A DNA stretch of 64,000 bases, from NCBI GenBank assembly GCA_019359095.1, contig JAHHHZ010000020.1:62001-126000 (forward strand), in the 5' to 3' direction. A program made the position numbers and the translations under genes. Position 1 is the first letter of the stretch. Every line of letters starts with the position of its first letter. The notes beneath the pieces are model-generated. The model was not told the origin of the DNA, ran no database searches, and saw nothing but the letters and a program-made list of their open reading frames with translations. Source of the stretch: Pleurocapsa minor HA4230-MV1 (GTDB lineage: Bacteria > Cyanobacteriota > Cyanobacteriia > Cyanobacteriales > Xenococcaceae). Below, piece after piece: positions 3,263 to 4,935 of this stretch.

Positions 3263-4174
3263 ATGAATCAGAAATTTCTATTGTACGAGATTTCCCTCGA
3301 AGCACCTGAAGAGTCCGAAGCAATGGGGACAAAGGAAAAGTTCTGGTTTCATCATGAAGAATTAGGTTGGTGTCTTTATAAAAAAGCTAGACCTCTTACA
3401 GGTGAAAGCTGGTCAGAAAAAATTGCAGCCGAATTGTGTAGGTTGCTTAAGTTGCCTCATGCTCAATACGAACTAGCCTTATACAAGAAACAACATGGAG
3501 TAATATCCCCGTCTTTTTTGCCACTAAACGGTAGTTTGACTACAGGAAATGAAATCCTAGCGCAAATCTTTTTGGATTATCCACAAAATATTAATGATTT
3601 GTCACAGCATACTCTTGTAAATGTTTTCCAAGTTATGAATGAATCAGCGGTTGATTTGCCCTTAAATTGGCAAGCACCATTATCCATAAAAACTGCAATA
3701 GATACTTTCGTAGGATATTTGCTGTTGGATTCTTGGATTGGGAACAGCGATAGACATCATGAGAACTGGGGATTTATTAATCTTAATGGCAAAAGTTATT
3801 TGGCACCTACTTACGATCATGCTTCTAGTCTAGGAAGAAATGAAGCTGACGAAAAACGTCGAAGAAGACTGGAAACTAAAGATCGGGGCTTTTCTGTATC
3901 AGCCTATGCGAATAAATGTAAGTCTTGTTTATATGCTCAATCTGGTAATCGTCAACCATTAAAAACTTTCGATGTCTTTTGTGATGCAGCGAAACTTTAT
4001 CCAAAAGCCGCAAATATTTGGCTAAATAACCTTAAACAAATTACAGCACAAGATACGTTAGTATTATTTGACCTTCTTCCAGATTTATATATCTCCCCAA
4101 CTGCAATCGACTTTGCTCAAAAGATATTAGAAATTAACAAAAACAAATTAATTGATTTTCAGCAAGAACTTTAA
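3263..4174 (+). CDS. HipA-type serine/threonine kinase core (HipT-like)
   Basis: A 303-residue protein with the hallmarks of the HipA kinase C-terminal fold. It has an ATP-binding lysine region (LYKK, K40/K41), a helix-C glutamate (E57 in EKIAAEL), the catalytic motif GNSDRHHENWGF (D163, N168) and the metal-binding APTYD (D185). It lacks the N-terminal subdomain of full HipA; a domain of that type appears to be encoded by the next gene. The stop overlaps the next ATG in TAATG, so the two are translationally coupled. A Shine-Dalgarno AGAGAGAA precedes the ATG. HipA kinases phosphorylate tRNA synthetases or other proteins and act as toxins or signalling enzymes. No HTH antitoxin (HipB) is adjacent. 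The target here is unknown. Confidence 0.85.
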   Translation: MNQKFLLYEISLEAPEESEAMGTKEKFWFHHEELGWCLYKKARPLTGESWSEKIAAELCRLLKLPHAQYELALYKKQHGVISPSFLPLNGSLTTGNEILAQIFLDYPQNINDLSQHTLVNVFQVMNESAVDLPLNWQAPLSIKTAIDTFVGYLLLDSWIGNSDRHHENWGFINLNGKSYLAPTYDHASSLGRNEADEKRRRRLETKDRGFSVSAYANKCKSCLYAQSGNRQPLKTFDVFCDAAKLYPKAANIWLNNLKQITAQDTLVLFDLLPDLYISPTAIDFAQKILEINKNKLIDFQQEL

Positions 4175-4935
4175 TGAGAAAACTTTTTCTAGCATGGCAA
4201 AATCCAGAAACTCGTCGTTGGTTTCCTATCGGACAGTTAACTTTTGATGGAGAAAACTACTATTTTGTCTATACTCATGGAGTAGAACAAGCTCAAGCTG
4301 AATCTAATTTCAGATTATTGCATTCTTACCCAGAGCTAGACCGCATTTACACTTCACCAGAAATTTTTCCTCTATTTTCCAACCGTCTGATGCGGACTTC
4401 TCGTCCAGACTTTGTGAATTATATTGAATCATTGAATTTTCCCCAAGGTGAAACTCATCCTATAACAATTTTGGCTCGTAGTGAGGGAAGAAAAGCTACT
4501 GACACATTTGAAGTTTTTCCTGATCCAGAAAGAAAAGAAGACGGAACATATGAAATTCATTTTTTTGTACGTGGATTACGGTATATGCCTGAAGCGTCTA
4601 TCGAGCGAGTGAACCAGTTACAGCTGAAAGAAGTTTTATATTTAATGCAAGATATTCAAAACACATTTGATTCTAATGCTTTGTTATTACGTACCAAAAA
4701 ATTTCATAACTTGGGATATTGTCCAAGGTATTTGACAGCAGACATTTCTCAGCTTTTGAAGCACAATCCTAGATCTATTTTGGTGGAAGTTGAAAAAGTA
4801 AATCTAGCACCTAATCCGATGCAATTTAGAGTTTTATGTAAGATGCAAATAAAAGTTGAAGATGATTTTAATTTTCTTGCTGGTGAAGAATATCAGCCAA
4901 TTGTAAGTCCATCATTATCCCTAGTCTCAGAGTAA
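4174..4935 (+). CDS. HipA-N-terminal-like plus HIRAN-like domain protein
   Basis: A 253-residue protein. Residues 1 to about 95 have the pattern of the HipA N-terminal subdomain: IGQL, YYFVYTHG, a long linker, then IFPLFSNRLM. Residues about 128-245 resemble a HIRAN domain, with FFVRGLRYM, FDSNALLL and LGYCPRYLTADI, matching the family pattern of a D-x-NA core and a GY-PR strand. HIRAN domains in helicases bind single-stranded DNA 3' ends. The start overlaps the stop of the kinase gene, so the two products likely work together, as HipS and HipT do. Domain calls are by eye; the HIRAN call is firmer than the HipA-N call. Confidence 0.7.
   Translation: MRKLFLAWQNPETRRWFPIGQLTFDGENYYFVYTHGVEQAQAESNFRLLHSYPELDRIYTSPEIFPLFSNRLMRTSRPDFVNYIESLNFPQGETHPITILARSEGRKATDTFEVFPDPERKEDGTYEIHFFVRGLRYMPEASIERVNQLQLKEVLYLMQDIQNTFDSNALLLRTKKFHNLGYCPRYLTADISQLLKHNPRSILVEVEKVNLAPNPMQFRVLCKMQIKVEDDFNFLAGEEYQPIVSPSLSLVSE

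Follow-up and report, generated by a model that had tools for sequence, protein, structure and literature searches.

The window analysed here, a 64,000-nucleotide stretch of DNA from Pleurocapsa minor HA4230-MV1, carries on its forward strand a pair of open reading frames (ORFs) that have one base in common in a TAATG stop/start overlap, an arrangement that suggests translational coupling (Table 1). The pair lies amid ordinary genes, outside any defence island. Both flanking genes are on the opposite strand, one specifying a protein with SdhB-type iron-sulphur domains and the other a protein with RecG domains, and genes for a methyltransferase and a short-chain dehydrogenase are also close by. 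No gene for a helix-turn-helix (HTH) antitoxin such as HipB stands beside the pair, given the SdhB-type and RecG flanks, and the gap upstream of the first ORF contains no ORF of at least 35 amino acids. Scans for promoters and terminators at the pair returned nothing beyond shuffled controls. An earlier note on this DNA, made from the letters alone, had already described both the overlapping ORFs and the absence of an HTH antitoxin, and both descriptions hold.

Table 1. Features of the hipI-hipN pair, with positions counted from the first letter of the window.
Feature	Position	Strand	Basis or remark
hipI: short HipA-type Ser/Thr kinase without N-subdomain 1, 303 aa, PDC-M03A	3263..4174	+	Pfam, PADLOC, AlphaFold model
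K40 codon of hipI	3380..3382	+	invariant in 27/27 homologues and in the 51-row alignment
Catalytic segment D163-R-H-x-x-N168 of hipI	3749..3766	+	D163, R164, H165 and N168 invariant in the 27-homologue and 51-row alignments
D185 codon of hipI	3815..3817	+	invariant in 27/27 homologues; at least 90% in the 51-row alignment
TAATG stop/start overlap of hipI and hipN	4172..4176	+	1 base common to both ORFs
hipN: HipS-like and HIRAN domains in one chain, 253 aa, PDC-M03B	4174..4935	+	Pfam, PADLOC, AlphaFold model
HipS/HipA-N-like domain of HipN, residues 1-118	4174..4527	+	structure matches to HipS and HipA
HIRAN domain of HipN, residues 121-240	4534..4893	+	Pfam HIRAN, structure matches, HLTF profile match

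The product of the first ORF, HipI, is a short kinase of the HipA family that lacks N-subdomain 1, as do the kinases of the hipIN (PDC-M03) family. It matches the PADLOC model PDC-M03A (E 4e-117) and also Pfam HipA_C, at a level (E 3e-6) that falls under the Pfam curated cut-off. A single-chain AlphaFold model built on homologues (mean pLDDT 94.9) matched CtkA (Z 27.9 over 274 residues), Legionella HipT (Z 19.7) and HipA (Z 18.7) in structure comparison. Residues 11-300 of the model align to residues 125-437 of the HipA chain, which is matched only from about residue 125 onward. Residues K40, W50, E52, D156, N161, D163, R164, H165, N168 and D185 are invariant in all 27 aligned homologues; by analogy we take K40 to be the ATP-binding lysine and D185 to be the metal-binding aspartate. 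Because the catalytic residues are invariant in these homologues, HipI would be expected to be an active kinase. The kinase core that the earlier note had recognised from D163, N168 and D185 is thus borne out by conservation and by the predicted fold.

The second protein, HipN, matches Pfam HIRAN (E 6e-9) and PADLOC PDC-M03B (E 6e-90). Its match to the Pfam HipA N-domain (E 0.15) is not significant by sequence alone and amounts to a hint, which the predicted structure (single chain, built on homologues, mean pLDDT 93.7) turns into a clear resemblance. Over residues 1-118 the model resembles HipS from Legionella (7vkb_B, Z 12.0, rmsd 2.2 over 100 residues; 8ezr_A, Z 11.8) and from Escherichia coli (7ab3_B, Z 11.4), the HipS matches spanning 99-100 residues, as well as the N-domain of HipA (3dnv_A, Z 9.3). 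Residues 121-240 match the HIRAN domain of lp_0118 (3k2y, Z 14.1), HLTF (Z 10.8-11.2 for crystal structures and 8.5 for the NMR structure) and Rad5 (Z 9.6). HipN also matches, more weakly and below the caution line of the structure comparison, HamB, a subunit of Hachiman (8vxy_B, Z 7.6). HLTF is retrieved by the HipN sequence profile as well (E 4e-4). The HIRAN domain of HLTF binds DNA ends (PMC8262856), and by profile and predicted fold the HIRAN domain of HipN is a putative DNA-end binder. The earlier note had staked its reading on a HipA-N-like N-terminus and a HIRAN-like C-terminus in this protein, and single-chain structure prediction found both folds.

The pair is already known. It is hipIN, main clade XI in the survey of Gerdes, Baerentsen and Brodersen (2021; PMC8262856), in which cyanobacterial members are mentioned, and it is the PADLOC phage defence candidate PDC-M03A/PDC-M03B. 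Since PMC8262856 also proposed that hipIN senses DNA ends and acts in abortive infection, neither the arrangement nor the DNA-end-sensing idea of the earlier note is new. The name PDC-M03 was not found in the open-licence literature searched, and among the matches listed there we found no experimental test of hipIN, including tests of phage protection. Relative to the passages of the 2021 description available to us, what we add are the predicted folds, a one-way pattern of kinase loss, hotspot and plasmid contexts, and a variant in which hipN comes first.

Comparison with relatives argues that the pair arrived at this site after the neighbouring genes. In the nearest relative found, G005, the SdhB-like protein is 96% identical to that of the window and RecG is 98% identical over 428 residues, and the two genes are separated by 211 bases, as against 1811 in the window, with short flanks that align on both sides; on this alignment, the sdhB-recG junction of G005 is an empty site. 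Two other members of the genus, G001 and G004, have the pair in a different gene setting and with only 46/44% and 68/66% identity to that of the window, whereas the SdhB-like proteins of the ten genus members that yielded one (partial in one case) share 85-96% identity. Because the neighbours differ and the pair is so much less conserved than the SdhB-like protein, hipIN was probably acquired more than once within the genus. These observations make a better case for later acquisition than the one the earlier note had offered, namely the absence from the pair of the HIP1 octamer GCGATCGC. The octamer is indeed absent from the pair and occurs 66 times in the window; as evidence of acquisition, however, we rejected this absence as weak, since 272 of 1247 window stretches of the same size (22%) also lack it. 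The GC content of the pair, 35.8% against 39.8% for the window, is suggestive only, with 6.9% of stretches being equally low. Among the relatives' loci that were read, G005 was the only one to show the SdhB-like and RecG genes together.

Relatives of the pair are also carried by mobile elements. At 33 of the 61 viral-contig loci, gpQ, which is the portal gene of P2, begins 41-69 bases past hipN, and the gap between gpA and gpQ of P2 has been described as a hotspot for defence against phages (Rousset et al. 2022, PMC9122126; the word HIRAN is absent from the main text of that paper). One hipIN type (at least 95% identity) is present in 21 of 5426 E. coli genomes; the two copies inspected lie in P2-like prophages between a replication gene and gpQ, and in one P2-like prophage SIR2 and ATP-binding genes share the gap with hipIN. 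In a Vibrio phage (13.9 kb, with an annotated PM2-type capsid protein) the pair adjoins an integrase gene, and on a Nostoc plasmid it adjoins DUF499, DUF1156 and helicase genes. Relatives also occupy other chromosomal sites, and their presence is patchy and lineage-specific. As a family, although not in the window copy itself, hipIN is therefore associated with defence hotspots and mobile elements, as anti-phage systems are. Genomic context together with related HipA-type systems suggests a role in defence, and the possible stress or defence module of the earlier note is supported as plausible. A viral scan with a HipN alignment, bearing on the notion that phages carry HipN alone as a counter-defence, confirmed no relative; its pattern was strict, and a scan with the kinase gave HipN in 61 viral loci, so that the negative outcome does not count against such phages.

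The distribution of the two genes relative to one another is informative. We searched 388 Cyanobacteriales genomes with a kinase model and with a HipN model and classed the matches by intactness, using thresholds for "intact" of our own. The first round of classing counted 78 kinases and 123 HipN as intact; re-reading of the DNA brought these to 72 and 120 and left our weighing of the explanations as it was. Since the genome search passes over stop codons, six kinases flagged for stops were re-read: G485 and G523 (mid or early break) became broken and the other four borderline, three of these ending at about residue 282-286 of 304 (G589, G595 and G562) and the fourth, G581, being interrupted at about residue 18. 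The three excluded HipN were truncated or frameshifted in the DNA (G518:C3, G509:C5 and G509:C6). All unpaired loci were re-read at the DNA level save G429:C31 and G558:C502, which were set aside. The earlier note had held that its reading would fall if the two genes were rarely adjacent; a full-length HipN ORF adjoins 71 of the 72 intact kinases, the contig of the 72nd ends inside HipN, and no intact kinase without HipN was seen among the 72. HipN is not so constrained. Among the matches listed, which reach E ~4e-9 and leave more distant HipN outside the set, 120 HipN are intact: 63 accompany an intact kinase, 48 are clearly without one, 4 are borderline (kinase stop near one end) and 5 adjoin a contig end (G665:C301, G429:C31, G558:C502, G467:C248 and G567:C544). 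Among these matches the 48 loci clearly without an intact kinase span 24 GTDB genera (22 genera for 46 loci, plus the genera of G485 and G523).

Other samples agree. In 386 genomes sampled across the phylum, HipN stands beside all 19 full-length kinases, and several intact HipN have no kinase. At 80 loci from named genomes that were selected through HipN, the kinase is intact in 42, broken in 25, absent in 11 and broken at a contig edge in 2. At the 61 viral-contig loci, which were selected through the kinase and represent 48 distinct kinase sequences, HipN is present in 61 and the kinase intact in 60. As in type II toxin-antitoxin systems, where the toxin gene does not occur without the antitoxin gene, none of the 72 cyanobacterial kinases and none of the 61 viral loci provided a kinase lacking HipN.

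Many of the kinase-less loci retain traces of the missing gene, although at some no trace is left. Remnants comprise only residues 277-303 (L074), only residues 229-293 (L084), or roughly the first 17 residues, which have become continuous with the reading frame of HipN (L073), and 4 of the 27 broken kinases of the 80-locus set have in-frame internal deletions (L120, L125, L134 and L138). Parsimony on a rapidly built tree of 81 HipN sequences, in which 30 of 78 inner branches are poorly supported and gain and loss of the kinase are indistinguishable, gave 27 changes of kinase state; because remnants are present, many of these changes are losses. In cyanobacteria, then, the kinase has repeatedly been broken or deleted while HipN was retained, an observation that is new. 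Were these losses the product of relaxed selection or assembly errors instead of toxicity, with HipN surviving by chance, one might expect breaks like those of the 6 among the 27 in which the kinase is split into two neighbouring ORFs (L132, L133, L153, L155, L177 and L184), which sequencing error could mimic, as well as losses at contig ends, where 5 loci of the 388-genome set do lie. Most breaks, however, are deletions with differing ends, found in 24 genera when all clear cases among the matches listed are counted, and chance decay does not account for the failure to see an intact kinase without HipN in any of the 388 Cyanobacteriales genomes; we regard this explanation as highly improbable.

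Repeated loss of the kinase with retention of HipN fits a kinase that acts as toxin and a HipN that acts as antitoxin, and so provides independent genetic evidence, drawn from gene content, on which of the two genes is which. The same one-way loss would also be expected were HipN useful in its own right, and the main rival to the toxin-antitoxin reading holds that HipN is a DNA-end-binding protein with a function of its own, the kinase being an optional effector recruited or activated at DNA ends. In keeping with this rival, an intact HipN persists at 48 of 120 loci clearly without an intact kinase (among the matches listed), and HipN seems to evolve in the same manner with or without its partner: the median pairwise dN/dS is 0.18 where both HipN have kinases (134 pairs), 0.17 where one does (215 pairs) and 0.18 where neither does (76 pairs), for non-independent pairs with dS of 0.1-1.2 and with L187 left out. 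The residues of the HIRAN and HipS-like domains are about equally conserved, and the 37 kinase-less HipN, like the 43 paired ones, have lost hardly any of the conserved residues of either domain, departures being slightly commoner among the kinase-less (S103 in 34/37, L100 in 35/37 and F68 in 35/37, as against 43/43 each in the paired). We rejected such purifying selection as proof of an independent function, since kinase loss is undated, the pairs are non-independent, and kinase-less HipN of close relatives differ by few changes; the ratio is high for some of these pairs (L139/L151, 0.69, with 6 synonymous and 15 non-synonymous changes; L119/L126, 0.56). Moreover, the HipS-like domain that would face the kinase is also conserved in kinase-less HipN, where a kinase-free function would make it superfluous, and HipS inhibits HipT in both systems for which structures have been solved (PMC10627512, PMC9325769). 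On balance we think it unlikely, if still a serious contender, that HipN works chiefly on its own account. The plain reading of the loss pattern remains that the kinase is costly and its partner protective, in the manner of toxin-antitoxin systems.

Why cyanobacteria should keep HipN alone admits a further suggestion, one that we hold tentatively and would sooner doubt than assert: the solitary HipN, with its kinase-facing and its DNA-end-facing surface both preserved, may serve as an immunity protein, either an orphan antitoxin that shields the cell against hipIN brought in by phages or plasmids, or an autonomous DNA-end binder. If this is correct, the module evolves by toxin loss and antitoxin capture.

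Gene order is a second point on which cyanobacterial loci vary. Across the 388 genomes, 54 of the 72 intact kinases precede hipN, as in the window, and 18 follow it. Some kinases of the HipN-first type carry an extended C-terminal tail (L105, 424 aa; L106, 397 aa), and that of L283 is fused to a 2139-aa protein. Pfam HIRAN was matched in none of four HipN tested from such pairs, all of which still matched PDC-M03B, so HIRAN would not be essential to every kinase-HipN pair. Because the parts of PMC8262856 seen by us place the partner genes of HipM, HipI and HipJ downstream, the HipN-first order may be an undescribed arrangement. One HipN-first pair adjoins genes for a TrwC relaxase and a coupling protein, and another adjoins a ParA-like gene (identified by eye). 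This plasmid-like company, taken with the copies on plasmids and prophages and the patchy presence of the family, is what might be expected of a selfish addiction module that has no part in defence and in which HIRAN does no more than make the antitoxin stable or anchor it on DNA. Against this reading, many cyanobacterial loci retain HipN once the kinase is gone; the position in P2 is a defence hotspot (PMC9122126), and HIRAN in HLTF is a fold that binds DNA ends (PMC8262856). A purely selfish role thus strikes us as rather improbable.

With moderate confidence, we favour the reading that hipIN is a horizontally acquired module of the toxin-antitoxin type in which HipN restrains HipI and HIRAN senses DNA ends, the outcome being defence of the abortive-infection type. 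Free HipI would phosphorylate an essential host protein and growth would stop; the related kinases HipA and HipT target aminoacyl-tRNA synthetases. The HipS-like domain of HipN would bind HipI at the place that N-subdomain 1 occupies in HipA and hold the kinase off. We propose this on the strength of the HipN fold, the HipS-HipT structures and the one-way loss pattern. HipS of E. coli inhibits HipT directly by pushing a tryptophan into the active site (PMC10627512), and HipS of Legionella does so by reshaping the P-loop (PMC9325769); given the shared fold, the N-domain of HipN would be expected to block its kinase likewise. Restraint of HipI by HipN is accordingly supported by fold and by loss pattern, while for DNA ends as the trigger it is the predicted HIRAN fold that points the way. 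HIRAN may act as a sensor to which DNA ends produced by phage infection or DNA damage bind; such binding could weaken the hold of HipN on HipI and set the kinase free.

The observations of the earlier note were therefore confirmed and its interpretation partly supported. hipIN has been a bioinformatic prediction since 2021 (PMC8262856), and the copies in P2-like prophages of E. coli make the hypothesis readily testable in laboratory strains. If DNA ends are indeed the trigger, hipIN would be a kinase alarm set off by free DNA ends; we know of no HipA-family toxin for which free DNA ends are the trigger.

Set beside known systems, the window pair shows the anatomy of hipIN as given in the available text of PMC8262856 (kinase gene first, a short core kinase, and a HipN composed of HipS-like and HIRAN domains) without any difference, and likewise we saw no difference from PADLOC PDC-M03, both proteins being strong matches. 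hipL, described in the same paper, has the same three domains (kinase, HipS-like and HIRAN) in one chain, where the window has two genes. With hipBST of E. coli O127:H6 and Legionella pneumophila the pair shares a kinase split from its N-subdomain, the fold of HipS resembling residues 1-118 of HipN and that of HipT resembling HipI; it differs in having no adjacent HipB gene, in the HIRAN domain of HipN, and in placing the kinase gene first. HipAD (DS-6), found with DefensePredictor, also combines a HipA-type kinase with a partner protein that does not resemble HipB, and its defence against phage required a key kinase residue; that partner is a DUF3037/DUF1829 protein, and HIRAN is absent from the main text of the report (PMC13092281). 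HipI-type kinase and HIRAN genes stand together as well in the HipA-HIRAN operons described in PMC11706625, which adjoin diDNase genes, whereas the window pair adjoins SdhB-like, RecG, methyltransferase and short-chain dehydrogenase genes.

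Intact HipN genes also occur with no intact hipI kinase gene beside them. At three such loci, which lie in different genera (L073, L074 and L094), flanking genes are held in common, with a gluconate-kinase-like gene in all three, as well as a fructokinase-like gene (both identified by eye). These common flanks point to an old shared site from which the kinase was lost repeatedly.

Kinase-less HipN was also found on a contig or plasmid of 260,268 bases (L308, G579:C2; L288, plasmid pOSC7112.02), where a 46-aa stub is all that remains of the kinase; the annotated plasmid record, likewise 260,268 bases in length, lists HipN and does not list the kinase. 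A further kinase-less HipN directly follows a toxin-antitoxin-like unit (L087, see table).

Coordinates of the octamer-free stretch and of related features at other loci
Feature	Location
Stretch without the HIP1 octamer, 3.7 kb	window:2687-6419
Second HipI-family kinase in the window's own genome, broken	G000:C7:24440-29312 (L102:4441-9313)
Two HipN-HipI pairs in tandem on a single contig	L281:1672-4950
2139-aa protein with an N-terminal HipI kinase domain	L283:3687-10103
Two-gene VapBC-type toxin-antitoxin-like unit (by eye) with the kinase-less HipN that follows it	L087:707-2256

The broken kinase is in three pieces, with transposase-like ORFs (TnpB-like by eye) in the intervening stretches, and no HipN was found near it in the 16 kb read. 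In the window, the octamer GCGATCGC occurs at a mean density of ~1 per kb, and the stretch that lacks it covers the pair and part of the flanking recG.

The window's order is kinase-first, whereas HipN precedes the kinase at L105, L106, L281 and L283, whose surroundings are in part plasmid or conjugative and whose HipN proteins gave no Pfam match to HIRAN. Besides HipA-type matches, the 2139-aa protein matched nothing in Pfam at E 0.01; its gene lies next to one for HipN and another that is ParA-like by eye.
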